Origin: Maribacter spongiicola
Lineage (GTDB): Bacteria; Bacteroidota; Bacteroidia; Flavobacteriales; Flavobacteriaceae
Length of the DNA stretch: 64,000 nt
Assembly: GCF_004364165.1 (NCBI RefSeq)
Contig: NZ_SOAY01000010.1
Span: 957,098 to 1,021,097, forward strand
Direction: 5' to 3'
Position numbers and translations under genes: made by a program. Of the stretch, positions 44,906 through 64,000 are shown one piece after another (within the stretch, counting starts at the first letter, position 1; the number at the start of each line of letters is the position of its first letter). Under the pieces are notes generated by a model, which did no database searches, was not told where the DNA came from, and was given only the letters and a program-made list of their open reading frames with translations.

Positions 44906-45541
44906 CTATTTTATTTCAATAGATGCGCCATAAAATTTTGGTTGAGTATTCAATACCATATCTATGAATACTTTTACACGTGCTAAATACTCTCTTGTCT
45001 GAACTTTTAGGCCTTGACTTGTAGAAACGTCTTCAGCATTAAAGCCTATGGCTTTTAACCCTTTTTGTTCTGCAATATAGATAGCCCGTTCATTATGGAA
45101 TTTTTGAGAAATTACCGTTACGTTATCTAGTCCGAAAATAAACTTTGCCCTGAACATACTATCTAAAGTTCTGAACCCTGCATAATCTAAGAAAACAACT
45201 TCTTCTGGTATGCCGGCTTTGATAAGATCTTTTTTAAAGGTATTTGGCTCATTATAATAAATACTACCATTATCGCCGCTAACTAAAATAAATTTTATCT
45301 TTCCGGCATTATAAAGTTCCTTGGTGGCGTTTATTCGATAGGTGTAATATGGATTAGGAGAACCATTGGTTAATCTATTAGAAGTACCTAAAACGAGACC
45401 GACTCTATTAGCAGGTACTAATGCTACGTCTGAATACGTTTTGTCTTCTGCAGTACCTGAAATAATACTATTACAGGCAAATATGATTAGAATTAACGCT
45501 ATTATTAATAAACCCGATATTTTTAGTATTTTTTTCAGCAT
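44906..45541 (-). CDS. SanA/YdcF-like DUF218 membrane protein
   Basis: A 211-residue protein with an N-terminal membrane anchor (about 5-25; a possible lipobox IFAC near 20-23). The ElyC/SanA/YdcF (DUF218) domain carries VGLVLGTSNRLTNG, FILVSGDNG and FHNERAIYIAEQKG. SanA-like proteins affect envelope barrier function and vancomycin sensitivity in enterics; the enzymatic role is unproven. It is the last gene before the suspected element boundary and is transcribed away from it. Confidence 0.88.
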   Translation of the reverse strand: MLKKILKISGLLIIALILIIFACNSIISGTAEDKTYSDVALVPANRVGLVLGTSNRLTNGSPNPYYTYRINATKELYNAGKIKFILVSGDNGSIYYNEPNTFKKDLIKAGIPEEVVFLDYAGFRTLDSMFRAKFIFGLDNVTVISQKFHNERAIYIAEQKGLKAIGFNAEDVSTSQGLKVQTREYLARVKVFIDMVLNTQPKFYGASIEIK

Positions 45542-45610
45542 GCATTTGTAATGATAACTAAAGTTAATGAATAACTGAAGACTTTAATTTGAAAAGTATA
45601 TAAAATAAAA

Positions 45611-45642
45611 AAACCCCTGAAATCAATTGATTTCAGGGGTTT
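45611..45642. terminator. Perfect hairpin terminator abutting the element boundary
   Basis: Arms aaacccctgaaatcaa / ttgatttcaggggttt form a 16-bp stem with almost no loop, with an A run to the left, so it terminates minus-strand transcripts. Its position 2 bp from a tRNA-like 3' end fits a tRNA terminator. Confidence 0.85.
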
Positions 45643-45643
45643 G

Positions 45644-45666
45644 TGGTACTCGAGGCGGGAGTACCA
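45644..45666 (-). other. Candidate attachment site: tRNA 3'-end-like palindrome
   Basis: Plus-strand tggtactc / gagtacca arms flank a 7-base loop. Read on the minus strand the outer part ends CCCGC-CTCGAGT-A-CCA. This has the spacing of a tRNA gene end: five T-stem bases, seven acceptor bases, a discriminator A and CCA. The rest of a tRNA is missing to the right. A tyrosine recombinase starts 156 bp away. This is how a core copy left by integration into a tRNA 3' end would look. Alternatively it is just a small hairpin. Confidence 0.4.
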
Positions 45667-45821
45667 TTATTTTTAAACGTCCTTAAATCTTTTTAAATCC
45701 CTAGGTATTGTTATATATATTATAGTTAAATTTAGTTTCAATTAAATTTAACCGATTAAAATATCATTTGGTTGCCCCTTTTGTAGCCCTATTTTATCAA
45801 TTTTAATCAAGTACATTACTA

Positions 45822-47057
45822 ATGCAAGTTACATTTCATTTAAGGAAAGACAAAATAGGAAAAGGAGGTTTGGCGCCTATACGTATGGTGGTGGCATCAA
45901 ATGGTTTTAAAATTTTTAAAGCTGTAAAGAATGTTAAATCATCTGTTAGCTCTTGGGATAAAAAAAAAGAGCGTTTAAGAAGTCCGAAGGCAAATGAGGC
46001 TTATAATAATCATATTGAGTATAATAAGATTATAGATGACTTAGAGTCTAAGCTAAAAACATTGAATAGATATATTCTTTTAAATGAAATTGTTCCAGAC
46101 AAAGCATATATTTTAGATAAGCTTAATTCTGATTCGAAGATGGAATTGACCCATTCGTTCATTCCCTCTTTTAATGAATTTATAGAATTGGGTAAACTTA
46201 CAAAAGCAGAAAGAACGGTTAAGTCATATACTACAGCCAAAAATTTCTTTGAAAATTTTGAAAAATCTACTGGATATTCTCTAAGATTTGAAAGTATCAC
46301 CAATGAATTTTTTGAAAAATTTCAAGAGTATTGTTTTACTGTTAAAAACACAAAAAATAATTATTTCGCTAGATTGGTCACAACTCTAAAAACATTTATG
46401 AAATGGTCTTTGGAGAGAGATTATCACAGTAATATCTCATTTTTAAAATTTAAAGCTCCTGAAGAAGAAATAGAGGTTATTTATTTAACATACGAGGAAT
46501 TAATGTCTCTATATAATTTTGAATTTGACAATGAATCTTTCAGTAGAATTCGTGATATGTACTGCTTTGCTTGTTTTACTGGGCTAAGGTTTTCTGATAT
46601 AAGAAACTTAAAGGCTTCTAATGTATATGAAAATGAGATTAAAATAAATATTCAAAAAACTAAGACCGTAGATCACACAATACCTTTAAATAGTTTTGCT
46701 AAAGCTATTTTGGCTAAATATAAAGACACACTTTATGAACCGTTACCTGTAATTAGTTCACAGGGATTCAATAAAAAAATTAAAAAGGTATGTGAGAAAG
46801 TGAAGATTAATACACCAACTACGACTACTAGGTTTGTAGGTAGTAGAAAGGTTGAGCATACCCTTCCTAAATGGAAGTTAATTACGAGCCACACCGCTAG
46901 AAAAACATTTGTAACCAATAGTTTGATTCTAGGGATGAAAATACCGGTCCTTAAGTCTATTACAGGGCATAAAAAAGAACAAAGCTTTAGAAGATATGTG
47001 AATATTTCTGAAAGTTTAAAGCGAAGTGAAATGGATAGTACCTGGGATAAGAAGTAA
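45822..47057 (+). CDS. Tyrosine-type site-specific recombinase (integrase)
   Basis: A 411-residue Bacteroidetes-type integrase. It has an N-terminal Arm DNA-binding region (about 1-90), a SAM-like core-binding domain (about 105-200) and a catalytic domain (about 215-405). The catalytic set is visible: R256 in TGLRFSDI, a Lys in the IQKTKTVDH hairpin, H357 and R360 in SHTARKTF, H383 in ITGHKK, and the nucleophile Y392 in FRRYVNI. It should integrate and excise the element carrying it. The ATG follows an AT-rich leader. The pentad is intact, so it is probably active. Confidence 0.95.
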   Translation: MQVTFHLRKDKIGKGGLAPIRMVVASNGFKIFKAVKNVKSSVSSWDKKKERLRSPKANEAYNNHIEYNKIIDDLESKLKTLNRYILLNEIVPDKAYILDKLNSDSKMELTHSFIPSFNEFIELGKLTKAERTVKSYTTAKNFFENFEKSTGYSLRFESITNEFFEKFQEYCFTVKNTKNNYFARLVTTLKTFMKWSLERDYHSNISFLKFKAPEEEIEVIYLTYEELMSLYNFEFDNESFSRIRDMYCFACFTGLRFSDIRNLKASNVYENEIKINIQKTKTVDHTIPLNSFAKAILAKYKDTLYEPLPVISSQGFNKKIKKVCEKVKINTPTTTTRFVGSRKVEHTLPKWKLITSHTARKTFVTNSLILGMKIPVLKSITGHKKEQSFRRYVNISESLKRSEMDSTWDKK

Positions 47058-47076
47058 CTAATAATATTTAACAAAA

Positions 47077-48204
47077 ATGGATTCCAATTCAAAAATTAAA
47101 TTAATTAAAAATGAGTTACCTAAAATGGGGTTGGTAGACCGATTTTTCTATTTAGTTAATGAGTTATATCTTGAATATTTCAGAAAGTTGGATATCGTGA
47201 ATCCTATTATGGAGTGGGAATCTTTTGAATTAGATGATAAATGGGAGGAAATTGAATTAGATACAATAACTATTCGCGAGCTGGCTATATGGTATGGATT
47301 TTTACAGGATTATGGTGATGAAGAAATTAAATCATTTATACTATCAGAGATTAAATTGTTAATACCTATTTTTAAACAGAGGTTTGCTTTTGAAATATCT
47401 TATTTATATACTAAAAACCATTCTAAAGATTATTATTTATCAGGTAATCCTGAGTTTTTAGTTTTATCTCCATTTTTCTATGATCAATCTAGTCTTGAGT
47501 CTGCTTATATTCATGAGCTTGCAATAAGCGAAGTAGAGGATAGAAAATACTTAATTAAAAAATATGAGGCTGCAATCGCTGAAATTAAGTATAGATTGAA
47601 ATCTGATTATGTTTGGGATGCAAGTTTAGAGGACAACAGAGCTACGATTGTAGATGAGATAGTTTTTCCGGAGCGAAGTGTTATCAATTTGAACCATCTC
47701 ACTTCATTTTTAAAGGAACTTGCTGAAACACCACTAAATAAAATTTCCTATACTTTCAACGAAAATAAAGAAGAAGAGAAACTAGTTTTAATTGGTTTGC
47801 ATCCAGAGGTTTTGGTGAAATTATTTAGCCAAATTCTTAAAAGAGATAAAACAATCTTAATTCGAAATTTTGTTGCACATAGTTTTAATTTCAATTTTAA
47901 GAAATACTCATTTCAAAAAGATATAACTAAAGAAGTTTTAGCTTTAAAAAGTAAAGAGGATACCATCGTAATTTGTAAAACAATTCTACTTCTTACTTCG
48001 CTTAACTATATTCAACCCGAAGGTGCATCATTTATAAAACGAGTTTTAATAAAGGCTCTTAAAAAACAAAAGAAAAATACTAGAGTTTGGCTTAGTGATG
48101 ATTTAAGAAAATATATTTCTGAATGGATGTCGATGTCTCCTAATGATTTAGCAAAGGCAATTGGTTATTCTTCAAAAGAAGAGTTTTTAAATTCATTACT
48201 TTAA
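47077..48204 (+). CDS. Unrecognised 375-residue protein beside the integrase
   Basis: I do not recognise a family. The protein is mainly alpha-helical by its pattern, without a signal peptide or membrane segments, and ends in a compact motif (WMSMSPNDLAKAIGYSSKEEF) that looks like a small helix-turn-helix-type helical unit. Lys and Glu are abundant (KKQKKNTRVW; FNENKEEEKLV). It begins 19 bp after the integrase stop on the same strand, so they are probably co-transcribed. A regulatory role for the element, like the RteC-type proteins near Bacteroidetes integrases, is possible but unsupported by any motif I can point to. Confidence 0.65.
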   Translation: MDSNSKIKLIKNELPKMGLVDRFFYLVNELYLEYFRKLDIVNPIMEWESFELDDKWEEIELDTITIRELAIWYGFLQDYGDEEIKSFILSEIKLLIPIFKQRFAFEISYLYTKNHSKDYYLSGNPEFLVLSPFFYDQSSLESAYIHELAISEVEDRKYLIKKYEAAIAEIKYRLKSDYVWDASLEDNRATIVDEIVFPERSVINLNHLTSFLKELAETPLNKISYTFNENKEEEKLVLIGLHPEVLVKLFSQILKRDKTILIRNFVAHSFNFNFKKYSFQKDITKEVLALKSKEDTIVICKTILLLTSLNYIQPEGASFIKRVLIKALKKQKKNTRVWLSDDLRKYISEWMSMSPNDLAKAIGYSSKEEFLNSLL

Positions 48205-48273
48205 AATTGAAATAATCTTAATTGTGAGTAATTATTTGTGTCATTAAATGGATTATTTCCATATTTTTGGAAA

Positions 48274-48549
48274 ATGTCCGAAATTGTTTTTCGAAATTAT
48301 GATATCACAGCAATTAAAAAATTGCTGAAAGAAATTGGGAAAGAACGTTATGAAGCGGCTTTACTTAATCGTTCAATTACTCAAAAACCATTGGTAATGA
48401 AAGGTTTTTTCGTAGAGTTTGAGGTTAATACTAAGGATGTGAATTTATACTATAGATATCCTTCAAGAATAACCTTGTTCATAATGCCAGTTTTAGGGTA
48501 TTGGGCGGTTCCAACTTTTGGATGGGAATTATATCGTAAGAAGTTATAG
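48274..48549 (+). CDS. Unrecognised small protein, element cargo
   Basis: A 91-residue protein from ATG 48274 (MSEIVFRNYDITAIKK); a GTG at 48238 would add 12 residues and is less likely. The N-terminal half is charged and helical (KKLLKEIGKERYEAALLN). The C-terminal half is hydrophobic (about 68-86, LFIMPVLGYWAVPTFGW) and could be membrane-embedded. No family recognised. It sits between two other unrecognised genes on the same strand. Confidence 0.5.
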   Translation: MSEIVFRNYDITAIKKLLKEIGKERYEAALLNRSITQKPLVMKGFFVEFEVNTKDVNLYYRYPSRITLFIMPVLGYWAVPTFGWELYRKKL

Positions 48550-48594
48550 GATTCTTCTTAACTGATTATTTTAGAAACCACTTAATCAAAAATT

Positions 48595-49182
48595 ATGATA
48601 ATAAGCCATGAGGAGTTTCAAAAAGCTAGGAGAATTAGCAGAGCTATTCAAGAATATCTAGAGCAAACTGGCTCACATGGTGTTAGAAGCACTGATGTAT
48701 ATCCACTTCTTGCAAGAAAAGGGTTAATTCAAAAAGATAGACATAATGGTGTTCATTTTAGAAACTATTTAAAGCGTCTTCACAAAAGTGGAATGTTAAA
48801 TCTAATACCTCAATGTAAAGCAAATAAAAACAAGTCGAAATCATATGAGTGGCGATTTTACAGTGTGCCTGACAGTAAGATAATATCTAATGTGGAGTCG
48901 GTAAATGTTGACAATCCTATTGTTCCAGATATAACAGAGGCTGAAATAGATGATTTAATTTTAAAGACAAAATCTCATATTGATAAATTACCTAAAATTG
49001 ATACCTCTATTTTACCGCCGCAAATATTAGAGTTAAGGAAAAATTACCCTAGAGCTTACGAGAAGTGGACAGAAAGAGAATATGATATTATGAATAGGGC
49101 ATTTGTAAAGTTTAAGAATATTTATAAAGTTGCTGAGTTGTTGAGAAGGCAACCTAGTGTTGTTAGAAAAAAATTAAAATGA
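48595..49182 (+). CDS. Putative DNA-binding protein with two helical HTH-like ends
   Basis: A 195-residue protein of unknown family. The N-terminal part (about 1-85) reads like a winged-helix unit: helix, helix, then RSTDVYPLLARKGLI and HFRNYLKRLHKSGML. The C-terminal part (about 145-195), YEKWTEREYDIMNRAF followed by VAELLRRQPSVVRKKLK, resembles the small Myb/SANT-like helical motif (YxxWTxxE...hAxxLxRxxxxVRxxL) found at the ends of bacterial DNA-associated proteins. No signal peptide. A role in element regulation or DNA binding is inferred from this and from the integrase neighbourhood. Confidence 0.6.
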   Translation: MIISHEEFQKARRISRAIQEYLEQTGSHGVRSTDVYPLLARKGLIQKDRHNGVHFRNYLKRLHKSGMLNLIPQCKANKNKSKSYEWRFYSVPDSKIISNVESVNVDNPIVPDITEAEIDDLILKTKSHIDKLPKIDTSILPPQILELRKNYPRAYEKWTEREYDIMNRAFVKFKNIYKVAELLRRQPSVVRKKLK

Positions 49183-49258
49183 GATAACGATAAAAACCTG
49201 CTACGATATCAGGTATTTTGTAAATTCAGGTTGTTAAATAAATAATTAAAACATTGCT

Positions 49259-49495
49259 ATGGAAGAAAAATTTAATGGTAACCGCAATAAATTTTCTAGA
49301 GAAAATCTTAAACTTTTTGACGATATAGCACGTTTGGATATCAATTATTGTGAGTGTTATGCAGTTGAAGATGTCCATCCCGATTTTGCACTTTGCAGTA
49401 AATGCGAATTGGTAGTTCCTGGAACTGATGAGTCAGAAATTAAATTCTTGGTTAGTATTACAGGAAACTATAATCTTTTAAAGCCGAAAGATTAG
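49259..49495 (+). CDS. Unrecognised small Cys-containing protein
   Basis: A 78-residue protein with two closely spaced cysteine pairs (YCECYAV and LCSKCEL), a plausible zinc site of the CxC...CxxC type. The rest is acidic and lacks a signal peptide. It starts 76 bp after the previous unrecognised gene and is the last gene of this block. The function is unknown; a small zinc-ribbon regulator is one possibility. Confidence 0.5.
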   Translation: MEEKFNGNRNKFSRENLKLFDDIARLDINYCECYAVEDVHPDFALCSKCELVVPGTDESEIKFLVSITGNYNLLKPKD

Positions 49496-49928
49496 GTAAT
49501 AAATTATTTATATAATAATGCTAGGGTCATGTACATATAATTTGCTCTCTACGAATTCTAGCAATCCGAAAGTGATTCATAAATCACTACATAGGATAAG
49601 GTAGGTTTTTTTGATTAAGAAAGAATGCTAGTTTTTTCAATCTTATTGCTCTATTTAATTTTCCAAGATACCCGTAAAACCTCTATTGGATAAACATATT
49701 ACTTTCGATTCTATGTAGCTATTAGTTATCTTGCCAAACCAATATTTAATTATTAAATATTTATAATCATTTTATAAATTTCCAATTCTATTTGAAAACA
49801 TCTATTTGTATGTTGTTCTATGTAATGTAGACAATAAATGATTTTATTTTAATTATTTATTTCTCGAAAGAAATCTCAAAATTTACCTTTTTACTTTTCC
49901 TGTACACACATAAATAAAATCTGCAAAT
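49496..49928. other. 433-bp gene-free stretch before the PUL
   Basis: Very AT-rich. The only structure I see is a 7-bp inverted repeat agtgatt / aatcact at 49571-49588, and a T-rich segment near 49607. No open frame of note, no promoter consensus on either strand, and no recognisable RNA. Confidence 0.5.
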
Positions 49929-50528
49929 TTACCTTAAAACTGATTTAAGTTCATTTCCAAAAACTATTAATAAAATTGTTTCATATTTTTCTCCCATCTT
50001 GTTTCTTAGAATACGAAAAGCTTTAGTTATTTGATTTTCAACCGTTTTATTTGAAAGGTTTAGGTATTTTGAAATCTCAACATTGGTTAGACCTTCTTTT
50101 TTACTCATCAGAAAAATTTGTTTGCATTTTGGTGGTAACTCGTGAATGGCCTCAAAAAGTATAGAAAGTATCTTCTCTTCTTGTATCTCGTCTTTTTCAT
50201 CGATAGCAAGCTCTAATGCTGTCATGTATTTCTTTTCTAAGGCTGTAACAGCTTTTCCTTTTCTATACTCATCAATAAACTTGTTGTAAACTGACCTGTA
50301 AAGATAGTTTTCCAAGGAAAGCTCATATTTAAGTTTGTTACGTTTTTCCCAAATCTGTACAAATACGTTTTGAACAATATCTTCGGCTATCAAATCATCT
50401 TTGATCAAGCTATTAGCATAATTGCACAATTTATTATGATACCTTTCTACTAGATGAACATATGCCTTTTCATTGCCAATTTTTAAATCTTCAATCAATG
50501 AATTTTGATTATAAAAATACTCTTTCAT
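49929..50528 (-). CDS. ECF-family RNA polymerase sigma factor (Bacteroidetes FecI-like)
   Basis: A 199-residue extracytoplasmic-function sigma factor. Region 2 (about 25-95) carries AEDIVQNVFVQIWEKRNKL. Region 4 (about 140-190) has the helix-turn-helix LTNVEISKYLNLSNKTVENQITKAFRILR. It would direct transcription of the PUL once released from its FecR partner. It is divergent from the fecR gene, with 113 bp between the starts, whereas sigma and anti-sigma genes usually run in one direction. Confidence 0.94.
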   Translation of the reverse strand: MKEYFYNQNSLIEDLKIGNEKAYVHLVERYHNKLCNYANSLIKDDLIAEDIVQNVFVQIWEKRNKLKYELSLENYLYRSVYNKFIDEYRKGKAVTALEKKYMTALELAIDEKDEIQEEKILSILFEAIHELPPKCKQIFLMSKKEGLTNVEISKYLNLSNKTVENQITKAFRILRNKMGEKYETILLIVFGNELKSVLR

Positions 50529-50641
50529 GTTATCAAAACGGTTATGGTGCTGGATACAATATTTAGCAAATATGAAAAAAAAATGTGAAAAAAGTAGGGG
50601 TTTCTTATTTTGGGTTCGTTTAAATGTGAATTGTATAATGA

Positions 50642-51805
50642 ATGAAGCCCAAAAGAATACATAAACTAATTGTGAAATTTGTAACAGATTCGATTTCCAA
50701 AATCGAACTGGACAAATTGGAAAGTGAACTCAATCACCCGTCGACCAATCGACTTCTTAATGAATATGTGAAATTAAACTACAGAATTGACAGTAAAATG
50801 AAAATTTACGATACGGAAAAGTCAAAGCGGTTATTACTGGCTAAAATGAGAAATGATAATAAAGGTCCTAGAAAGCTGAAAATAAACAGATATTTAAAAT
50901 ATGCCGCTCTTATAGTTTTATCTATGACTTTAGGATATTTAGTTAAAGAATTTTCTTTTTCGGAAAAGATAGAGCCCCAGTTTTCACCAAATGAAAATTT
51001 TATCACTTTAGAACGTGAAGATGGAAATATTCAGGTTATTTCAGAAGAAGGAACGACACAGGTTTTTGATAAAAAGGGAAATGTTGTTGGTTCTCAAGTA
51101 GGTAACCAACTGGTGTATAAACATAGTAATGATTCCGAAGAAAGTTTACCCGTTTACAACACGCTAAATGTTCCATATGGTAAACAATTTGAACTTAAAT
51201 TGGAGGATGGTTCCGTAGCATATTTAAATTCGGGATCATCTTTAAAATATCCTGTTAATTTTCAAAAGGGAATGGAGCGTAAAATCTTTTTATCAGGTGA
51301 AGCTTTTTTAGATGTAGCAAAGGATAAGAATAGAGCATTTATAGTTCACGCATCAGGTTTGAATGTAAAAGTATATGGTACGCGTTTTAATATTTCAGCT
51401 TATCCTGAGGATAAGATTAAGGAAGTGGTCTTAGTTGAAGGTTCGGTTGGTATGTACGCAACAACGAATGAACTTCAATCCGGAAAAGAAACATTGTTGA
51501 CTCCTGGAACAAAAGGTAAATATGATAATTTAATTGGGGATATTTCAAAAGAAACAGTTGTAACGAGTATATATACATCTTGGGTACAAGGTGTATTGGT
51601 ATTTAGAAATATGAGTTTTGAAGATATTCTTAAAAAGTTGGAGCGACATTATGATATTGAGATTGTTAATCAAAATTCACTATTGTCTTCTGAAACTTTT
51701 AATGCCAGTTTTGAAGATATGCCTATTGAGAAAATATTGGATTATTTCAAAAGTCAATACGATATAGACTATGTAATTGAGAACGACATTGTAATTGTAA
51801 AATAA
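50642..51805 (+). CDS. FecR-family anti-sigma factor
   Basis: A 387-residue anti-sigma protein: short cytoplasmic N-terminal sigma-binding region (about 1-80), one membrane segment (about 84-101), periplasmic FecR domain (about 175-270; YGKQFELKLEDGSVAYLNSGSSL and LSGEAFLDVAKD in separate places), and a C-terminal DUF4974 domain (about 315-387). It holds the ECF sigma factor and releases or activates it when the STN domain of the cognate SusC receptor signals substrate. The SusC gene is next, after 158 bp. Confidence 0.93.
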   Translation: MKPKRIHKLIVKFVTDSISKIELDKLESELNHPSTNRLLNEYVKLNYRIDSKMKIYDTEKSKRLLLAKMRNDNKGPRKLKINRYLKYAALIVLSMTLGYLVKEFSFSEKIEPQFSPNENFITLEREDGNIQVISEEGTTQVFDKKGNVVGSQVGNQLVYKHSNDSEESLPVYNTLNVPYGKQFELKLEDGSVAYLNSGSSLKYPVNFQKGMERKIFLSGEAFLDVAKDKNRAFIVHASGLNVKVYGTRFNISAYPEDKIKEVVLVEGSVGMYATTNELQSGKETLLTPGTKGKYDNLIGDISKETVVTSIYTSWVQGVLVFRNMSFEDILKKLERHYDIEIVNQNSLLSSETFNASFEDMPIEKILDYFKSQYDIDYVIENDIVIVK

Positions 51806-51882
51806 ATTAAAAATAAAATGTATATGAAGAATTGATTTAAATAAAATTTCACCTTTTACTTATTCTTCACCAGTGTGAAAAA

Positions 51883-51912
51883 AATCGGAAAATGTGTCAC
51901 CATTTCCCGATT
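51883..51912 (+). promoter_or_regulatory. Imperfect hairpin in the leader of the SusC gene
   Basis: aatcggaaaatg pairs with cattTCCCgatt (12-bp stem with one A/C mismatch, loop tgtcac), 51 bp before the SusC start. A smaller ttcac/gtgaa stem lies at 51866-51879. There is no T run, so it is not a clear terminator; it may be an attenuator, an RNA processing or stability element, or a protein operator. Confidence 0.45.
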
Positions 51913-51963
51913 CGTAAAAGTGATTAACCAAATTGTATAACCACAATCAAACATTATAAAAGT

Positions 51964-54900
51964 ATGAAAAAATATCTTGATCAAACAAGAAGGGGGCTCC
52001 CATCTCTTAAACTCAATTTGAAAATGAAAATCAGTATATTGTTTATGTTTATGGTATTATTTACCATGCAGGCAAAAACATCGTATTCTCAAGGTACCAA
52101 AATCTCATTGGAACTGAATAACGTATCAGTAGAAAGAATAATAGATGAAATTGAAAGTCAAACCCAATTTCATTTCGTGTATCAAATCAAAGATGTTGAT
52201 TTAAAGAGAAAAATTAGTGTAAATGCTCAGAGAGAAGCTGTATCAAAGATTTTAACAAGGATGTTTGCTCATACAAGAACTACTCACAAAGTAGTAGATA
52301 AACAGATTTTTCTTAAAGAAAGGAGTATCTCTAAGATTGAAAAAAATGAAATTGATGTTAAGCAAGAGTTTGTTATAACTGGTGTTGTAACCGATATGGC
52401 GGGGCAACCATTGCCAGGTGCAAATATTGTAGAGAAAGGTACTACTAATGGTGTTACCACAGATTTTGATGGTAATTTTTCAATTGAAGTTGCCAAAGAT
52501 GCAATTATTGTGGTAAGCTATATCGGATTTGCCTCCAAAGAAGTTCCGGTAAATGGTCAAACATCTATTAATGTATCATTAGAGGAAAGTGCTGCGGCAC
52601 TAGACGAAATTGTGGTAGTTGGCTATGGCACTCAAAAGAAGATTAACCTTACTGGGTCAGTAAGTTCCATAGACACCGATGATCTTACAACACGACCTGT
52701 CACTAACATAAGTTCGGGTTTATCTGGGTTGGCGGCAGGAGTGAGTGTCGTGCAAAATAGTGGAGGTACTGCCGGTGGCGACGGAGCTACAATTCGTATT
52801 CGTGGTGTTGGTACAATGAATAACTCAAATCCTTTAGTTGTTGTTGATGGTGTACCTTCTGAAGGAACGGATATAATGAATGATATTGATCCAAACGATA
52901 TTGAAAATATATCGATTTTAAAAGATGCTGCTTCTGCTTCAATTTATGGGTCTAGAGGCGCCAATGGTGTTGTTCTTATCACTACAAAGCGTGGTAAGTC
53001 GGGTAAATCTCGACTAACTTACAATACTTACTATGGTATTCAAAGTATTCCAAAATTGATTGAATATGTTAGCGATTTTGCCGATTATATGGAAATAGCT
53101 AATAGAATCAGACCAAATCAACAAAATTTTTCACAATCTGATATTCAGGAATGGAGAGATAATCCGAACGATCCTTTATATCATCCAAACGTTAACTGGA
53201 ATGAAGAACTTTTTGGAGGTTCCGCTCCAATTATGAACCATTCATTGGGTTATAGTGGTGGAAATGAAAAGACAACTTATCGGATGTCAATGAGTTACCT
53301 TGATCAAGATGGTATTACTAGAGGAAATAACATTCAGCGCTACGGTGTTAGAACCAACCTTTCATCTGAAGTCCTTAATGGGGTTAAACTTGGTGGAAAT
53401 GTATTTTTCAGATGGACAAATCTTTCTCCGAACGCTCTAACCTTATCAACAACATCAACTGAGTGGTCACCATCAATTACAAATTTAAGGCACCCTGATG
53501 GTAGATGGGGAGGAGCTCAAAGTGGGTCGGTCCAGAGCATAAGTGCTCCTTATGCGGAAATTGCCAACCGTATAAGAGAGCAAAATAACCGAAGAATTAT
53601 GGGTAATGTTTTTACAGAATGGGAAATTTTTGATGACTTTAAGGCTACAGCAAAAGTGGCATTGGATTTTAATCAAGGTATATCAAGTGAATTTAATAAG
53701 AGGTATGATATATGGAATTTTAGAACAGAACAGATAATTGGTCAAATAGAGCAAAATTCCGGAAGAAGTGCTACTATTGCTCAATATCAAAATTACCAGG
53801 TCAATGCTAACCTATTGCTGGAATATAACAAGAATATTGGTGATCATAATATAAAAATTTTAGGAGGTTACGAAACACTTCAGTATAGAGCGGATGGCAT
53901 AAATGTTACTAGACAACAATTTCCAAATAACGAGGTACAAGGTGTAAATGCTGGATTGGAACTTATTGGCGGTGGTGGAACAATAGCAGAATGGTCAATG
54001 CAATCATATTTTGGTAGGGTAAACTACAATTTTAAAGACAAGTATTTATTTGAAGCAAACATAAGGGCTGATGGCTCATCGCGTTTTAAAGATGGCAACC
54101 GTTATGGATATTTCCCCTCTTTCTCCGCAGGATGGAACATAAGCGAAGAGGATTTTATGAAAGATGTTAAAGGTCTAGATTATTTAAAGATAAGAGCCTC
54201 ATGGGGGAAATTGGGTAACAATCGTATTGGGAATTATCCATACCAATCAACTTATGCTTTAAATCAAAACTATTCTTTCAATGGTGAGGTGTACTCGGGT
54301 ATTGCACAGACCGCATTGACTAACGAAGATATTAAATGGGAAGAAACAACAACTACAGATTTTGGTGTGGATGCGAGATTTTTTAATGGTAAATTAAGTG
54401 TAAATGCAGATTATTTTGTTCGTAAAACAGATGGCATATTGACTGCACTACCGATTCCTCAGTTTCTAGGTGGAAAAACAGAGCCTGTCGTGAATCTGGC
54501 ATCAATGGAAAATAAAGGTGTTGAGTTGTCGGTAGGACACCGTGGTCAAATCGGGGAGGTAAGCTACAACGTATCTGCTAATGTTACTAAACTGCACAAT
54601 GAGGTTACCGACTACTTTTCTGATATAGTTACGGGAGGAACGCAAATAGGATACGCTTTCAATTCATTTTTCGGATATGAAGTTGTAGATATCTTTAGAA
54701 CAGAAGAACAGCTCGCAAATGCGGCAGAGCATAGACCATTTACAAAATTGGGTGATCTTGAATTTAAGGATCAACTAACCGTAGATACCAATGGTGATGG
54801 TGTTCCAGATGAAGGAAATGGTGTAATTGGAACAGAGGATCGTGTTATTATCGGTAATAGAATTCCTAAATATAGTTTTGGTGGTAATATTGGTTTTAAT

Positions 54901-55341: not shown

Positions 55342-55381
55342 TTTAATAGTCAAGATTTTGAAAAAAATAAAAACAATAATT

Positions 55382-57058: not shown

Positions 57059-57393
57059 ATATATTTCAATAGTTGTGTTAGTTTAAACCGGGGCAGATTT
57101 TTTCTGTCCTGGTTTATAACAACTTCTTCGTATTAAAAAGGGTACGTCAATTCAATTGAGAATTTAATACAAAATTTATTTAGCCTATTCACTTATACTC
57201 GCAACTCTATTACTAGAACTGTAGGGTCAGAGAATCTTTGCATATAAGAAAGGTAAATAAGTGGAAAATCATATCAGCAGGAACACTCTGTCATGATAAA
57301 GAAGTTAATAAATGAAATGTAGAAGATTATAGAGTTCACGCGTTAATCAGCATTAAATAAAGAATCCAAACCAATGAATAAACTAAACTTATT
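57059..57393 (+). other. 335-bp gene-free spacer between SusD and the sulfatase
   Basis: It holds the hairpin at 57084-57116, one near-consensus -7 element (aatctttg at 57233-57240; first base differs from TAnnTTTG), and a seven-codon open frame overlapping the sulfatase start. No larger open frame or RNA is recognised. Transcription of the downstream enzymes may restart here. Confidence 0.45.
57084..57116 (+). terminator. Hairpin after the SusD gene
   Basis: taaaccggggcaga pairs with ctgtcctggttta (about 12 bp including G-U pairs) around a T-rich loop. No T run follows, so it may act as a partial terminator or as a 3' end that stabilises the susCD message. Confidence 0.5.
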
Positions 57394-57397
57394 ATGA
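57374..57397 (+). other. Seven-codon open frame overlapping the sulfatase start (ATGA)
   Basis: ATG at 57374 reads MNKLNLL then TGA at 57395-57397, overlapping the sulfatase ATG at 57394 by the bases TG/A. It could couple translation of the sulfatase, or be chance in an AT-rich leader. Confidence 0.3.
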
Positions 57398-58848
57398 TAA
57401 TAAAAAGATTTGTCATATTGCTAATCGCCTTTTTAGGTTTACTTTCTTGTAAAAGTGAAGCCTCTAAGAAAATAGAAGAACCTGAGCGACCAAACCTGTT
57501 ATTTATCTTTGCAGATCAATATCGTAAAGCATCATTAGGTTTTTTAAACGAAGATCCTGTTCATACGCCTAATATTGATAAATTGGCAAAAGAAGGTGTG
57601 TTTTTCAATCGTGCGGTATCCAATCATCCATTGTGCAGTCCTTATCGGGCAATGTTGATGACCGGAAAGTATCCATTGTCAAATGGGGTTGTAGAGAATT
57701 GTAATTCGGCAAATACTCCTTACGGCAACTTTCTAAGTAAAGAAGAAGTCTGTTTCTCTGATGTTCTTGTATCTAGTGGATATAGCGCAGGTTATGTGGG
57801 GAAATGGCATTTGGACGGACCGCCCGCAACACCACCCGGCACTAAGAGGGTTTGGGATACTTGGTGCCCTCCAGAGAATCGCCATGGTTTTTCATTTTGG
57901 TATGCTTATGGAACTCACAACCGGCATAATACCCCTTATTATTGGGATACAAATGGAAGTGCTAAGGATACCATATTTGTGAACCAGTGGTCATCAGAGC
58001 ATGAGGCAGATGTGATAATGAAGTATATTGATAATGCTAAAACGCAAAGAGAGAACGATAAACCTTTTGCCCTGTTTTGGTCTATAAATCCACCGCATAC
58101 TCCTTTTGGTCAAGTTCCCGAGAAATATAGTAAAAGGTACAAGGGAATGGATTATAAAACTTTACTCAATCGACCAAATGTAGAATTTACAGATAATTAT
58201 AGCTGGAAAAAAGGGGATAAAGGAGTTGCTGCCAGGCTGGATCAGGCACCCGAATATTTTGCTTGTGTTGATGGTGTTGACGACCAGATAGGAAGAGTAA
58301 TAGAGCATTTAAAAGAAGAGGGATTGTATGAAAATACGATAATCGTTTTCTCTGCTGATCATGGTGAAATGTTAGGTAGTCATGGACTAATGCATAAAAA
58401 TGTTTGGTTCCGCGAAGCTATGGACATTCCTCTTATTGTTCATTATCCAAAGAGTATTATTGCAAAAACCGATGATTTATTGCTTAGTGTTCCTGATTAT
58501 ATGCCAACTATATTAGGATTATTGGGATTGGGAGATAAAATACCTGACGATGTTGAAGGTAAAAATTATTCAGATGTGTTTTTTGATAAACCGGTCGAAC
58601 GGCCAACCAAACAACTATATTTTGGAACAAAACCATCAAATCCCGATAAAGGCGCAAGGGGTTTTAGGAATTACAACTACACGTTCAGTGTTTTTAAAGA
58701 TGATAACGGGGATAAGTTTTACTACCTATTTAACGATAGAGAGGATCCTTACCAGTTAAAAAATTGCTGGGGTGAAAATCCTGCATTAGATCAAAAAATG
58801 GAAGAGGAGTTGGCCGCATTGTTAAAATCCATGAATGATCCTTGGTAA
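57394..58848 (+). CDS. Formylglycine-dependent sulfatase (S1 family), lipoprotein
   Basis: A 484-residue sulfatase that removes sulfate esters from carbohydrates. The signal has lipobox GLLSC (Cys about residue 19). The active-site cysteine C81 lies in CSPYR, the C-x-P-x-R consensus converted to formylglycine. Metal ligands are seen in FIFADQYRK and FSADHGEMLGSHGL. LMTGKYP follows the active site. It would desulfate the PUL substrate in the periplasm. Formylglycine in anaerobic-type systems needs anSME; no maturase gene lies in this window. It precedes the GH2 gene by 26 bp. Confidence 0.94.
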   Translation: MIIKRFVILLIAFLGLLSCKSEASKKIEEPERPNLLFIFADQYRKASLGFLNEDPVHTPNIDKLAKEGVFFNRAVSNHPLCSPYRAMLMTGKYPLSNGVVENCNSANTPYGNFLSKEEVCFSDVLVSSGYSAGYVGKWHLDGPPATPPGTKRVWDTWCPPENRHGFSFWYAYGTHNRHNTPYYWDTNGSAKDTIFVNQWSSEHEADVIMKYIDNAKTQRENDKPFALFWSINPPHTPFGQVPEKYSKRYKGMDYKTLLNRPNVEFTDNYSWKKGDKGVAARLDQAPEYFACVDGVDDQIGRVIEHLKEEGLYENTIIVFSADHGEMLGSHGLMHKNVWFREAMDIPLIVHYPKSIIAKTDDLLLSVPDYMPTILGLLGLGDKIPDDVEGKNYSDVFFDKPVERPTKQLYFGTKPSNPDKGARGFRNYNYTFSVFKDDNGDKFYYLFNDREDPYQLKNCWGENPALDQKMEEELAALLKSMNDPW

Positions 58849-58874
58849 GAATATCAATTTAAATAAATATAAGA

Positions 58875-60899
58875 ATGCTATTTAGAAAAGTAAAAATTAC
58901 CAGTTTCTTGCTTCTTGTCACATTTACATTAAGTGCGCAGCGAAAAATTAAGCTTTTAAACCAAGATTGGAATTTTACATATGGTTACGAGGTTAAAAAG
59001 AATGTTTACGAAAGAATTGATATTCCACATACATGGAATAAAATTGATGCCAATTCTGGTAATCCTAGCTATTACCGGGGACTGGGAAACTATGAAAGGG
59101 ATATATTAATTGATAGTGCATGGAAAGGGAAACGTTTATTTCTCAAATTTTATGGTGTCAATTCCATTGCAAATGTGTTTGTTAATGGAAAACACATTGG
59201 GGAGCACCGAGGTGGGTATACTGCCTTTATTTTTGAATTGACGAATTTTGTGCAATATGGAAAAATCAATACTATTTTGGTACGGGTAAATAATGCACCA
59301 CAATTAGATATAATGCCACTTTTAGGGGATTTTAATTTTTATGGCGGAATTTATCGTGATGTAGAACTTCTGATAACCGAAAAAGCTGTTATCAGTCCTT
59401 TAGATTATGCTTCGTCCGGGGTCTATCTCAGTCAGAAAAAGGTTACAAAAGAAAAGGCAGAAGTAGAGGCATTAGTAAAAATATCAAATCTCGATAATCA
59501 ATCTGGGCTTCAACTAGCCTTAAGAGTAAAAGATGGCAATAAAACGGTATTGGAGAGAATTTTGGATGTGAATTCGAACCAAGAAGAAGTAAAGATTCCC
59601 TTTACAATTAACAAACCACATTTATGGAACGGGGTTGTAGATCCATATATGTACCAAGTAGAGGTGAGTTTATATGATAGTAATGTAGTTATTGATGAAG
59701 TAGCGCAACCTCTGGGCTTAAGGTATTATCATGTGGATGAAAACAATGGTTTTTTTCTTAATGGACAACATTTGGACCTTCAGGGAGTATGTCGTCACCA
59801 GGATAGAGCTTTAATCGGGAATGCCCTTCGTAAGGAACATCATGATGAGGATTTGATTATAATGCAGGAAATGGGGGCTAATTCAATACGTCTGTCGCAT
59901 TACCCCAACGATCCGTATGTTTATGACATACTCGATGAGGCAGGTTTTGTTACTTGGTCCGAAATACCGTTTGTAGGTCCTGGAGGTTATAGGGATAAAG
60001 GTTTTGTGGACCAAGAATCTTTTAAAGATAACGGGAAACAACAGCTAATTGAAATGATTCGTCAACAATACAATCATCCGTCAATTTGTTTTTGGGGCTT
60101 ATACAATGAACTGAAAACGACAGGGGATTCCCCAATAGAGTACGTGAAGGAGCTTCATGCTTTGGCACATAAAGAAGATCCAGGACGAATAACTACCGCT
60201 GCGAGTAACAGCGAGGACAATCAGTTACATGAGATTACAGATCTTATTGCTTGGAATAGGTATTTTGGTTGGTATCGTGGTGCTCCGTCTGATATTGGTA
60301 CATGGATGGATGAATTACATAAAGAACAAGCATCTTTTAAAATTGGACTAAGTGAATACGGAGCGGGCGCCAGTGCATTTCACCATGAGAATGAATTGAA
60401 AAAACCCAAAGCGCCTGACCGGTGGCACCCTGAAAAATGGCAATCGCATTATCATGAAGAGTATTGGAAAGCAATAAAAGACCGCCCATATATTTGGGGT
60501 TCTTACATTTGGAATATGTTTGATTTTGGAGCTGCGCATCGTTCAGAAGGAGAGGACATTGGAAAGAACGATAAAGGTTTGTTAACATTTGATCGAAAGA
60601 TTAAAAAAGATGCTTTCTATTTCTATAAAGCGAATTGGAATCTAGAAGATAAATTCGTTTACATCACTGAACGTCGTTTTGTGGTGCGTGAACAATCAAA
60701 AATAAAAGTACGGGTGTATTCCAATTGCCCGGAAGTTGAGCTTTTTATCAACGGAAAAACTTTTGGAAAGGCTTATGGCAGTTACGGGATTTTTGAATGG
60801 AACAATGTAAATCTTTATCACGGGAAAAATACTGTTGAAGTCCGTGCAAAAATCAAAAATAAGGAATACTCTGATCAATGTATTTGGGTTCTACAATAA
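58875..60899 (+). CDS. Glycoside hydrolase family 2 beta-glycosidase
   Basis: A 674-residue GH2 enzyme, probably beta-galactosidase-like or related. It has a signal peptide (about 1-21, ending LSAQ), a sugar-binding N-domain (about 25-165), an Ig-like domain (about 175-285), and a TIM barrel (about 290-590). The predicted acid/base is E412 in CFWGLYNELK and the nucleophile E494 in IGLSEYGAGA. A small C-terminal DUF4982-type domain follows (about 600-674). It is shorter than LacZ, lacking the domain 5 part. Substrate is uncertain, but the sulfatase next door points to a sulfated beta-linked glycan. Confidence 0.92.
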   Translation: MLFRKVKITSFLLLVTFTLSAQRKIKLLNQDWNFTYGYEVKKNVYERIDIPHTWNKIDANSGNPSYYRGLGNYERDILIDSAWKGKRLFLKFYGVNSIANVFVNGKHIGEHRGGYTAFIFELTNFVQYGKINTILVRVNNAPQLDIMPLLGDFNFYGGIYRDVELLITEKAVISPLDYASSGVYLSQKKVTKEKAEVEALVKISNLDNQSGLQLALRVKDGNKTVLERILDVNSNQEEVKIPFTINKPHLWNGVVDPYMYQVEVSLYDSNVVIDEVAQPLGLRYYHVDENNGFFLNGQHLDLQGVCRHQDRALIGNALRKEHHDEDLIIMQEMGANSIRLSHYPNDPYVYDILDEAGFVTWSEIPFVGPGGYRDKGFVDQESFKDNGKQQLIEMIRQQYNHPSICFWGLYNELKTTGDSPIEYVKELHALAHKEDPGRITTAASNSEDNQLHEITDLIAWNRYFGWYRGAPSDIGTWMDELHKEQASFKIGLSEYGAGASAFHHENELKKPKAPDRWHPEKWQSHYHEEYWKAIKDRPYIWGSYIWNMFDFGAAHRSEGEDIGKNDKGLLTFDRKIKKDAFYFYKANWNLEDKFVYITERRFVVREQSKIKVRVYSNCPEVELFINGKTFGKAYGSYGIFEWNNVNLYHGKNTVEVRAKIKNKEYSDQCIWVLQ

Positions 60900-60932
60900 A
60901 TAGTTTTAGTATTAATTTGATGAAATTTGAAA

Positions 60933-62165
60933 ATGAATAAATGTAGAAGAGGTTTTATAAAAGATATTTCGGCGTTGGGACTATCCACTGCATTTTACCC
61001 AACATTTTTATCCTGTATCAACAAAAATAGTGGTGCTAATTATCTGAATGAAAAAATAAATAAAATTGAATTATTCCGATATGACATCAATATTCCTAGG
61101 TATTTTTCATTTGGTACTTGGCTCAATCGTCAACACTTATTCATGAAAATTTCCTCAGGGGCACATTATGGTTGGTCTGAAATACCGGCTTCAAAAAACA
61201 ATCCAAATGAAGACCTAAGTTCTTGGGTAAATTATGTTAAACAATATAAAGGACTTACTATTGAACAAGCTCAAAGTCTATTGCAGCAACAGCAAGTAGA
61301 GGGTTCGAAAACTTCTTTGAAAGAAATGGAATTAATGGATATGGGTTTGTTAGATTTAATCGGAAGATTACAGCAAAAACCTGCTATTGAGCTTTTAGGC
61401 TTAAATCACCGTGAGCCTGTACCGGGTTTATATTGCATATTGCATAAAGATGAGGGAAAAGTACGAGAGGAAGCTCAAAAAAGTTTGGAGCAGAACTTAG
61501 GTCACCATGTAAAATTTAAAATGTATGGGAACAAGGAAATTGACCTAAGGTTATTGAGCATTATACGTGAGATTTTGGGTAAAGAGGCAATAATTATTTC
61601 TGATGTGAATAAGGGCTATAAAAATGTGGGATCACTTGAAGCTTTGGCTGACATTATGAACACCTTCAAAGATAATGGACTAAACGCGATTGAGGACCCT
61701 GCACCATTGACTACTGGCGAATGGATAGAACTACAAAAAATGATTGGAAATTTAGACCTTATTCCTGATGCACCAATGCGCCCGGCATGGAAAGGTATAA
61801 AAAAACTGCAAGAAGGAATGGGTAGAATTGTCAACTTACACCCGTCTACCATGGGTAGTTTTACACACACAGCTCTTTTGGCTAAAAAAGTTCAAGAGAT
61901 AAAAGCTAAGGTAATGATAGGTGATGATAGTTTAGCAGGACCGGCATGTTCGGCATGGCAACAAATAGCCATTGGTACTGGTGCGGTGTGGGTAGAAGCC
62001 ATCGAGAAAAAGGAAGATTCAAAAAATTATATGGATTGTTTGATCAGTTCTCCAACTAAAAAAGAAGCTAACGGTTTCTATTCATTAAAGCTAGAACCAG
62101 GTTTTGGTTTAAATATAGATACAGAAGGCTTGAGGAAAGTATCTGCCAAATATATTACAGTCTAG
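60933..62165 (+). CDS. Enolase-superfamily (mandelate racemase/muconate lactonising-type) enzyme with Tat signal
   Basis: A 410-residue protein from ATG 60933 (a TTG at 60927 adds two residues). The N-terminus MNKCRRGFIKDISAL has a twin-arginine motif, a hydrophobic stretch and a possible lipobox at LSC (Cys about 28). The barrel shows K194 and K196 in VKFKMYG (KxK), and candidate Mg ligands D224 in ISDVNKG, E254 in AIEDPAP and D279 in LIPDAPM. A His (H303, HPSTMGS) sits where dipeptide epimerases/MLE carry the catalytic Lys. The family abstracts an alpha-proton from carboxylates. Function in the PUL is unknown, perhaps acid-sugar dehydration or epimerisation outside the cytoplasm. Confidence 0.85.
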   Translation: MNKCRRGFIKDISALGLSTAFYPTFLSCINKNSGANYLNEKINKIELFRYDINIPRYFSFGTWLNRQHLFMKISSGAHYGWSEIPASKNNPNEDLSSWVNYVKQYKGLTIEQAQSLLQQQQVEGSKTSLKEMELMDMGLLDLIGRLQQKPAIELLGLNHREPVPGLYCILHKDEGKVREEAQKSLEQNLGHHVKFKMYGNKEIDLRLLSIIREILGKEAIIISDVNKGYKNVGSLEALADIMNTFKDNGLNAIEDPAPLTTGEWIELQKMIGNLDLIPDAPMRPAWKGIKKLQEGMGRIVNLHPSTMGSFTHTALLAKKVQEIKAKVMIGDDSLAGPACSAWQQIAIGTGAVWVEAIEKKEDSKNYMDCLISSPTKKEANGFYSLKLEPGFGLNIDTEGLRKVSAKYITV

Positions 62166-62229
62166 ATTATGGGGGAAATTTACTATTTAATTCAAACATT
62201 TTATCTTAGAGATTAGCATATATGGGGCG

Positions 62230-62257
62230 AAAAAAAAAGGGGGTCATATGACCCCTT
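62230..62257 (-). terminator. Palindromic terminator overlapping the RadC-like stop
   Basis: ggggtcatatgacccc (62240-62255) is a perfect 16-base palindrome, flanked on the left by eight A. On the minus strand it reads as a hairpin followed by a T run. The TGA stop of the RadC-like gene lies inside the stem. It also ends the enolase-family transcript from the other side. Confidence 0.75.
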
Positions 62258-62699
62258 CATCTTTCATTGAGCTATGTTTCTCTCTAGTGATTACTATGCT
62301 ATCGACAAATCTTATATCAAAGTAATTACAGGCTATTTCTAATTTTTTACTAACGGCAATATCTGCTTTTGAAAATTTTGTTTGACCGCTAGGGTGATTA
62401 TGAACCAGTATTATACCTGTAGTAGGTAGCATTATAGCATCTCTGACAATGGCTTTTATTGGTATTAAACAGGCTATGTCTGTACCAGAGCTTGCATGAT
62501 GTACATTTATAACTCTGTTTTCGTGATTCAGATGAATTACCTTGACAACTTCATGGTCGTCCATAACATGGTCGAAATAGGGTCTAATAAAATCTGCTGC
62601 GTCTTCTGAACTGGAGATTTTCTGTGCTTGTTGTTTAGTTCGTTTGTAGTTTACGGTTAACTCTCCTACCAAATTCTTGTAAATGGTCACTTTTTTCAT
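62244..62699 (-). CDS. RadC-like JAB/MPN-domain protein
   Basis: A 151-residue protein of the RadC-like JAB family, common on Bacteroidetes mobile elements. The metal-site motif is intact: HNHPSGQTKFSKADI supplies the HxH and the distal Asp, and an upstream Glu (VKVIHLNHENRVINVHH) could complete it. It lacks the N-terminal helix-hairpin-helix of full-length RadC. The role in recombination or repair is unproven; such short JAB proteins are mainly mobile-element markers. Oriented against the PUL. Confidence 0.9.
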   Translation of the reverse strand: MKKVTIYKNLVGELTVNYKRTKQQAQKISSSEDAADFIRPYFDHVMDDHEVVKVIHLNHENRVINVHHASSGTDIACLIPIKAIVRDAIMLPTTGIILVHNHPSGQTKFSKADIAVSKKLEIACNYFDIRFVDSIVITREKHSSMKDEGVI

Positions 62700-63003
62700 T
62701 TTAAATGATTTTTAGATTGAACAATATTTGCGCAATCACAAGTGGTAGTAAAATTTCAGCTCTAAAGGAAACGGAATAAATAAGAGCGAATCATGAGCCT
62801 GGTTTATGCCGTAGTCTTTTGATGGGAATATTTTACGTGCTTAATTTTGTGTAGATGTTGTTATGATATTCTTCTCTTATTTTGTTTTTAATGTATTGAA
62901 AATCTGCATATTATACATTTTAGGATGCAATTAGCACAAATTTATTATCAATCGATAGTCGTAGTGGATATCTTTTATCTATAAACAGAAATAACCTATT
63001 ATT
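62700..63003. other. 304-bp gene-free stretch
   Basis: AT-rich divergent spacer between the RadC-like gene (minus) and the 217-residue gene (plus). I see no promoter consensus matching well, no hairpin and no open frame worth calling. Confidence 0.4.
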
Positions 63004-63657
63004 ATGGCTACCAATATATTTGCATACTTTAATTTAACCGTTCGTGAGGCAGAAGATTTTTCAGGTGATGAACCAAGGTTGTTAATTGCTTTCGTAACTC
63101 TAGATGTTAATGGTCCTGGTGATGTCCAAGTTGATGTTATAAATACTGATAAACTGGGTTCTGGAATGGATGATGAGGATAATGTTCGAGGGATGGTGAC
63201 TTCAACAAATGCACCTACTATAGATGCTCCTTTTGTCGGGTTAATTGTAATGGCAATAGACAACGATAAATCTCGGGGCAGTCACAGAGTAAATCATTTA
63301 AACAGTTTCCGTGAAAGCGTACAAGAAGTTTTCACTTCACTTCATCAGCAACCGGGTGGTATACCTAGAATAAATACAGAAATAGGAAACAGTTATTCTG
63401 AAAGACAGCTAGAAGTATTGCAATCAATTCGAGAATCATGCAGTAATCAGTTGCAAAGGCATTGGTTAATTAGAGATAGAGATGATATTATTGGACTAAC
63501 ATCGGTTAACATCTTTAGTGATTTAGGTAATCAATTTCATGATTCTGGCTTAGCAAGCGATGGACACACTTTCAATTATAGAAAAAGATTTCTTAATATT
63601 TTTGGAGGTGATGGTCTTTACAATGTGAACTTTACATTAACAGCAAATAATTTGTAA
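63004..63657 (+). CDS. Unrecognised 217-residue protein
   Basis: No family is recognised. The protein has no signal peptide. The first half alternates short hydrophobic strands (LLIAFVTLDV, DVQVDVI, VGLIVMAID) with acidic loops (SGMDDEDNV, DNDKS), as in a beta-sandwich that might bind calcium. The second half is more helical (SERQLEVLQSIRESC) and ends with aromatic strands (YNVNFTLTAN). It starts at a clear ATG, transcribed away from the RadC-like gene. The small minus-strand gene downstream overlaps its last 21 bp. Confidence 0.6.
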   Translation: MATNIFAYFNLTVREAEDFSGDEPRLLIAFVTLDVNGPGDVQVDVINTDKLGSGMDDEDNVRGMVTSTNAPTIDAPFVGLIVMAIDNDKSRGSHRVNHLNSFRESVQEVFTSLHQQPGGIPRINTEIGNSYSERQLEVLQSIRESCSNQLQRHWLIRDRDDIIGLTSVNIFSDLGNQFHDSGLASDGHTFNYRKRFLNIFGGDGLYNVNFTLTANNL

Positions 63658-63786
63658 TGAAGCTGTATTTCCGCCATCGTAACTTGGATGAGGATTAATT
63701 TGTTTGTCAATGCTATAGGTCGTTTCACAAATTAAACAGGTGGATGAGTGATTATCACTCTTGAATGTTTTTATCTCTTTGTTCAT
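63637..63786 (-). CDS. Very small Cys-containing protein
   Basis: A 49-residue frame (MNKEIKTFKSDNHSSTCLIC...) with a CxxC (TCLICETTY) and a terminal IICC. The CxxC pair suggests a zinc or thiol site. It lies 39 bp downstream of another small minus-strand gene and ends 21 bp inside the convergent 217-residue gene. Coding is plausible from amino-acid composition, but there is no homology I can point to. Confidence 0.4.
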   Translation of the reverse strand: MNKEIKTFKSDNHSSTCLICETTYSIDKQINPHPSYDGGNTASLQIICC

Positions 63787-63825
63787 TTAGATATAATTTT
63801 CTAGTTAATTAGATTTTAGTGTAAC

Positions 63826-63978
63826 TTATAAAAATGATATAATACCTATTATGATTAAACCTATAAATATAATAATGGCTTGTTGGTTCATTTTTTTTAT
63901 CATGGATTTATGAAAGTTATCTAACTCCTTGGTAAATTCATTTCTAAAGACTTTAATTTCATTCTTTATTTCTTCCAT
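63826..63978 (-). CDS. Small C-terminally membrane-anchored protein
   Basis: A 50-residue frame (MEEIKNEIKVFRNEFTKELDNF...) with a charged, coiled-coil-like N-terminal half (about 1-30) and one C-terminal transmembrane helix (about 34-50, AIIIFIGLIIIGIISF). This is a typical layout for tail-anchored small proteins of phages and mobile elements. The gene is complete. It would be co-transcribed with the 49-residue gene downstream. Confidence 0.5.
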   Translation of the reverse strand: MEEIKNEIKVFRNEFTKELDNFHKSMIKKMNQQAIIIFIGLIIIGIISFL

Positions 63979-64000
63979 TTTGATAAGCTTTTTTGTGATA

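Follow-up and report, generated by a model that had tools for sequence, protein, structure and literature searches.

Gene trees are the usual basis for tracing how glycan diets spread among flavobacteria. Polysaccharide utilization loci (PULs) on mobile genetic elements (MGEs) are already known: in the available excerpts of PMC6907783, gut MGEs carry 47 loci with SusC and SusD (ImmeDB), and the accessible part of PMC8845570 places porphyran, agarose and carrageenan loci on integrative and conjugative elements (ICEs) or mobilizable plasmids; an earlier note on the DNA described here had likewise stated a precedent for the transfer of marine glycan loci. We analysed a stretch of 64,000 nucleotides of the Maribacter spongiicola genome (the window; bases 957098-1021097 of contig NZ_SOAY01000010.1, C1, in a genome of 4.46 Mb), together with 80 kb to its right and 20 kb to its left; all coordinates are window-based. 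The block at 45599-81727 is very probably an integrative mobilizable element (IME) seated in the 3' end of a tRNA-Leu gene, with a fixed backbone, no fewer than three cargo slots and a PUL that arrived in this species as its cargo. As in the systems in the excerpts of PMC6907783 and PMC8845570, an integrating mobile element of the Bacteroidetes carries a PUL. It differs from them, as far as those excerpts describe them, in its Flavobacteriaceae host, in being an IME with exact ends and empty sites, and in having a sister whose corresponding slot holds a restriction gene; its length of 36 kb also exceeds the 30 kb to which the gut study (ImmeDB, PMC6907783) limits IMEs in the part available. 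A literature search at listing level, with subscription papers mostly outside its scope, found no marine IME-borne PUL. What the element adds is its clear anatomy and a slot that in the sister element takes a restriction (defence-type) gene.

Both ends of the element are marked by a 62-bp direct repeat. The left, attL-like copy (45599-45660) holds the last 17 bases of tRNA-Leu, and its partner at 81666-81727 takes in the final 17 bases of an intact tRNA-Leu(taa) gene (81711-81797), to the right of which follow tRNA-Gly and mutS, the latter named from its sequence. A chance origin of the repeat is excluded because the copies are identical at 60 of 62 bases, one of them lies in a tRNA gene, and no other exact match in that comparison is longer than 13 bases. 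The distance from copy to copy is 36,067 bases (a 36.07-kb element), and the right end lies 17.7 kb past the end of the window. The earlier note had set the left edge of a mobile block at 45640, beside an integrase, and had expected the block to run on beyond the window; the integrase end and the continuation were confirmed, while the exact boundary is the repeat at 45599-45660.

The left flank was matched in all 36 genomes of the genus, our own included, many of these matches being partial. The junction could be read in 12 loci of other genus genomes, namely 11 returned loci (L008-L018) and that of genome G006 (L079). Ten of them are empty: in nine (L010-L018) the left flank is directly joined to tRNA-Leu, tRNA-Gly and the right flank, and in G006 tRNA-Leu and tRNA-Gly adjoin. 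A second copy of the repeat in G006 lies in a region (L063) where no gene matches the element. One contig (G026, L008) ends inside the tRNA, which is compatible with an empty site, and in G027 (L009) the site is occupied by a sister IME with other cargo. The comparison of presence and absence that the earlier note had proposed therefore speaks for a mobile block. Its description of the block as replacing a region has to be given up in favour of an insertion, since the left flank and the tRNA-Leu/tRNA-Gly pair adjoin in those ten loci.

Just inside the left repeat, a tyrosine integrase of 411 aa is encoded (45822-47057, plus strand; PF00589 and PF13102 above cut-off), which is 91% identical in G027. 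The genes to the right of the window encode a coupling protein (64480-66333; PF02534, 111.5 bits against a cut-off of 20.1, and PF12696), a DUF5712/MobB relaxase (66345-67238; NF041495, 233.8 bits against 200), a BfmA-type protein (67238-67690; NCBIfam, 57.5 bits against 24), a CHC2/Toprim primase (67857-68714), a DUF5906 protein with weak similarity to the C-terminus of P4 primase (68910-70121) and an excisionase-like HTH_17 protein (70128-70430). With an integrase, direct repeats at both ends, an empty site in relatives and a relaxase gene inside (NF041495), the block has the features of an IME. The earlier note had proposed a search for conjugation genes on this side: a relaxase, a coupling protein and mobilization genes are indeed there, in an element that is mobilizable rather than shown to be conjugative.

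In its MobB relaxase and BfmA-type protein, both above the NCBIfam cut-offs, the element resembles the Bacteroidetes mobilizable elements with BfmA/BtgA, MobB (BtgB) and MobC, and some plasmid relatives of its relaxase are annotated BtgB. It differs from them in being chromosomal, tRNA-Leu specific and 36 kb long, in the PUL and the restriction/Mokosh-type genes that it carries, and in a relaxase that is less than 60% identical to every one of the 126 plasmid records it matches among 72,556. A PDB sequence search with the relaxase gave no convincing match, and no paper on DUF5712 was found in the literature. Among the 36 genus genomes, the integrase is found in six (E<=1e-60) and the relaxase in seven (E<=1e-30), our own counted in both cases.

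With TIGR03783, the one model searched, no TraG/VirB4 mating-pore ATPase was found in the element. The single TraG of the genome over the cut-off of this model (323.3 bits against 261.55) is encoded on contig C2 in a tra cluster, with TraK, TraM, TraN and a MobB relaxase of 412.7 bits as neighbours; matches to TIGR03783 were obtained in 5 of 14 control genomes, none of them over the cut-off. Judged by its genes, the cluster is probably an ICE, which could act as helper. We propose that the integrase, aided by the HTH_17 protein, would cut the element out between the 62-bp repeats, that the MobB relaxase, the BfmA-type protein and the coupling protein would feed a single strand to the mating pore that a resident conjugative element provides, and that the primase and the helicase-like protein of the element would help to rebuild the second strand. 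Vehicle, ends, empty target, cargo junctions and candidate helper are all visible within a single genus and a single genome, which makes the transfer of a PUL directly testable. The C2 region (C2:205001-240000; L147, L148) has its own coupling protein in addition to its MobB relaxase; it also encodes a 544-aa protein weakly similar to CBASS nucleotidyltransferases and, rightward, metal-efflux-like genes recognised by eye.

Collinearity between the G027 element and ours extends over 45400-48191, 48482-49500, 62232-62878, 64028-70520 and 78617-82185, at 84-93% DNA identity, and the stretches between these blocks differ, bar two weak matches of about 100 bases in hsdM. Besides the integrase, the left backbone comprises three plus-strand genes: one of 375 aa adjoining the integrase (47077-48204; 79% identical in G027, with no match in Pfam, NCBIfam or PADLOC), one of 195 aa (48595-49182; 84%) and one of 78 aa (49259-49495; 91%), the last shared gene before slot A. 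Slot A (49501-62231) is occupied by the PUL cassette here; the alignment with G027 ends at 49500 and restarts at 62232, and in the sister this place is taken by five genes of small to medium size, among them one in which both GmrSD restriction domains score above cut-off. The right neighbour of slot A encodes a RadC-like JAB protein (62244-62699, minus strand; PF04002) that is 97% identical in G027. Slot B (62879-64027), where no alignment was obtained between 62878 and 64028, also differs in content and here holds a 217-aa gene (63004-63657) with no family match and, in a PDB sequence search, no convincing match. Slot C (70521-78616) contains a type I restriction-modification (RM) system in both elements, here hsdM, hsdS and hsdR (71445-78593) next to a gene just above the NucS_C cut-off (70663-71418); the type I RM genes of the two are 25-36% identical. 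Beyond it lies a 990-aa AAA helicase, putatively of the Mokosh MkoC type (78624-81596; L002:14624-17596), a near full-length match to the PADLOC MkoC model (940 bits; residues 3-989, profile positions 5-971 of 1136). The helicase is 87% identical in the sister element, whereas the adjoining type I RM genes diverge.

To the left of its GmrSD cargo, G027 (L026/L027) carries a 160-bp fragment of the RadC 3' end that starts, within alignment resolution, where the complete right-hand RadC gene starts (the value of 0.29 for fragment against full gene comes from a comparison without gaps). The 3' end of RadC has therefore been a junction more than once. The fragment would then be a scar of repeated cargo change, and recombination between related elements is a plausible route. 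That one and the same slot holds a PUL in one of two sister elements and a restriction gene in the other suggests a metabolic cargo also for islands that are usually studied for defence.

More distant elements occupy the same tRNA-Leu beside mutS in G009 and G024, with different genes on the left side. That of G024 (assembly 82% complete) is 84.8 kb long and has repeats on both sides; compared with ours, the repeats are 79 and 89%, the integrase 56% and the relaxase 41% identical, and the element encodes two SusC/SusD pairs as well as a hybrid two-component sensor, a GH9 protein and an MR/MLE-family protein. No SusC or SusD match appeared in the parts of G009 and G017 that were read. In G009 (L028-L031; G009:C1:525001-595000), the tRNA-Leu repeat is present three times and delimits two tandem integrase-bearing elements of about 11.8 kb and 36.2 kb.

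The PUL begins with a gene for an ECF sigma factor (49929-50528, minus strand; TIGR02985, 141.5 bits against 126.4), divergent from the others, which all lie on the plus strand: a FecR anti-sigma factor (50642-51805; PF04773 and PF16344 above cut-off), a SusC/RagA TonB-dependent transporter (51964-55341; TIGR04056, 920 bits against 368.25), SusD (55328-57058; PF07980 and PF14322 above cut-off), an S1-type sulfatase with CSPYR at residue 81 (57394-58848; PF00884 above cut-off), a GH2 of the LacZ4 beta-glucuronidase type (58875-60899; NF050095, 1090.9 bits against 950) and an enolase-superfamily protein (60927-62165; PF13378 (MR_MLE_C) above cut-off). With susC next to susD, and with the ECF/FecR regulator, sulfatase and GH2 in one cluster, the locus is of the SusCD type; all the parts that the earlier note had named, from the integrase through the ECF, SusCD and three enzyme genes to the RadC-like JAB gene, were recovered with Pfam or NCBIfam scores above cut-off. 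NDKG at residue 565 of the GH2 fits what we take to be the NxK glucuronate motif. The N-terminus of SusC gives a weak STN-like match (24.9 bits, below the cut-off of 28.4), and this combination of ECF, FecR and SusC suggests sensing via the transporter.

The predicted model of the enolase-type protein and its fold matches give a capping domain and a barrel. Its residues K196, K198, D226, E256, D281 and H305, presumably the acidic metal-ligand and the Lys/His catalytic positions of the superfamily, are invariant in 28 alignment rows, and its N-terminus, with RR and a Cys, was read by eye as a putative Tat lipoprotein signal. The fold search singles out no activity, the top rows (epimerase, racemases and muconate lactonizing enzymes) lying within about 1 Z unit. 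A search of named genomes with the single protein confirmed nothing; an alignment query led to 65 named loci (L081-L145), 31 of which carry an enolase-type gene at an identity of at least 51%. A sulfatase that is 67-71% identical to that of our PUL stands directly upstream of it in 18 of the 31. In the stretches examined, relatives of a rhamnosidase, RhaT or GH39 occur in 29 of these 31 loci and in none of the other 34; the marker proteins were taken from G407 and G186, both among the 31, and 2 of the 29 match themselves.

A setting for comparison is that of P29_PDnc, the ulvan oligosaccharide dehydratase of Formosa agariphila in the excerpts of PMC8511951, with which our PUL shares sulfatases and uronate chemistry and which concerns rhamnose-containing sulfated glycans. 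An enzyme of the enolase type might in principle dehydrate a terminal uronate. In contrast to that setting, as the excerpts present it, our PUL has neither a recognisable GH105 nor a recognisable ulvan lyase. Homology to P29_PDnc is not established and identity with it is not claimed; the available text of PMC8511951 does not contain "enolase" or "mandelate". A polysaccharide lyase or GH105, as expected of an ulvan PUL, found no match among the seven PUL genes (Pfam, E<=0.001; other loci of the genome were not searched), and for these steps the PUL may need genes from elsewhere in the genome.

Could the PUL be an old chromosomal locus of the lineage, which the IME backbone came to surround? 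Its GC content, equal to that of the host (0.353 vs 0.35), would fit, but this explanation is already contradicted and is highly improbable: the site is empty in ten of the 12 genus loci, the GH2 is absent from the 35 further genomes of the genus (E<=1e-150; one of 36, our own), the PUL sits between two blocks that are contiguous as backbone in G027, and its tetranucleotides differ from the core. The correlation of the PUL with the core is 0.591 and all 52 host core windows lie higher (minimum 0.691), these windows being of the same size as the PUL, overlapping and themselves part of the reference, which favours them. Thus the shift that the earlier note had asked about is present at equal GC. 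Elsewhere in the element, slot C does not stand out (rank 19 of 56), and the mobilization block ranks low (4 of 58). The enolase-type gene is found in 12 of 397 family genomes, our own included (E<=1e-70), the others being of other genera and at most 72% identical. SusD (E<=1e-110) was found in two of 397 family genomes, our own and G250 (56% identical, other neighbours), and in one of 395 phylum genomes, our own; both searches scored no more than three candidates in any genome, so that misses are possible. No donor of the whole PUL was found, and the 65 named loci, some of them short stretches, gave no ECF, FecR, SusC, SusD or GH2 match of 45% over 150 aa. A PUL brought by horizontal transfer on a mobile element, the central proposal of the earlier note, is hence supported by repeats, empty sites, relaxase, coupling protein and shifted tetranucleotides. 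Several observations weigh against this IME interpretation: neither excision nor transfer was observed, the coupling protein and the HTH protein do not reach the cut-offs of the NCBIfam models specific for MobC and excisionase, few genomes of the family have the relaxase (3 of 329 at E<=1e-60, our own included), TraK, TraM and TraN of the presumed helper all fall below their own cut-offs, and the slot picture comes from one pair of elements, with one close sister known; the equal GC and the advantage of the core windows belong here as well. The lack of movement data and of a transfer pore would also suit a dead genomic island that is no longer mobile, which we consider unlikely given the open frames of integrase, relaxase and coupling protein, repeats identical at 60 of 62 bases and a tra cluster in the genome.

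For the substrate, our best guess, which we favour with some reserve, is a rhamnose-rich, ulvan-like sulfated glycan that contains glucuronate, because of the sulfatase-enolase pairing (18/31) and the rhamnose-glycan genes (29/31 vs 0/34) described above. The PUL itself has no rhamnosidase, which counts against this assignment and would agree with a chondroitin-like glycosaminoglycan instead, as would the beta-glucuronidase model of the GH2 and the solved relatives of the sulfatase: its nearest solved chain is 6j66, and the best ones include the chondroitin/dermatan 4-O-endosulfatases 6j66 and 6s21. Such a target is nevertheless rather unlikely in view of the close relatives of the PUL sulfatase directly upstream of the enolase-type gene and of the rhamnose-related genes confined to the loci with that gene. 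The sulfatase/enolase gene pair is a concrete lead to an enzyme step in the breakdown of sulfated rhamnose-glycans.

More tentatively, and with considerable doubt about the two parts holding jointly, tRNA-Leu IMEs might be a shared flavobacterial carrier whose slot by RadC is traded between anti-phage genes and glycan loci, nutrition and immunity competing for room, and the exported enolase-superfamily enzyme, partner of a sulfatase in rhamnose-glycan loci, might be a new uronate dehydratase or epimerase acting on oligosaccharides. The order of a sulfatase followed by an enolase-superfamily protein, in many cases with a Tat-like start, recurs in rhamnose-glycan loci of Polaribacter, Hyunsoonleella, Seonamhaeicola, Algibacter and others, and distant relatives of the enolase-superfamily protein are present in Paenibacillus.

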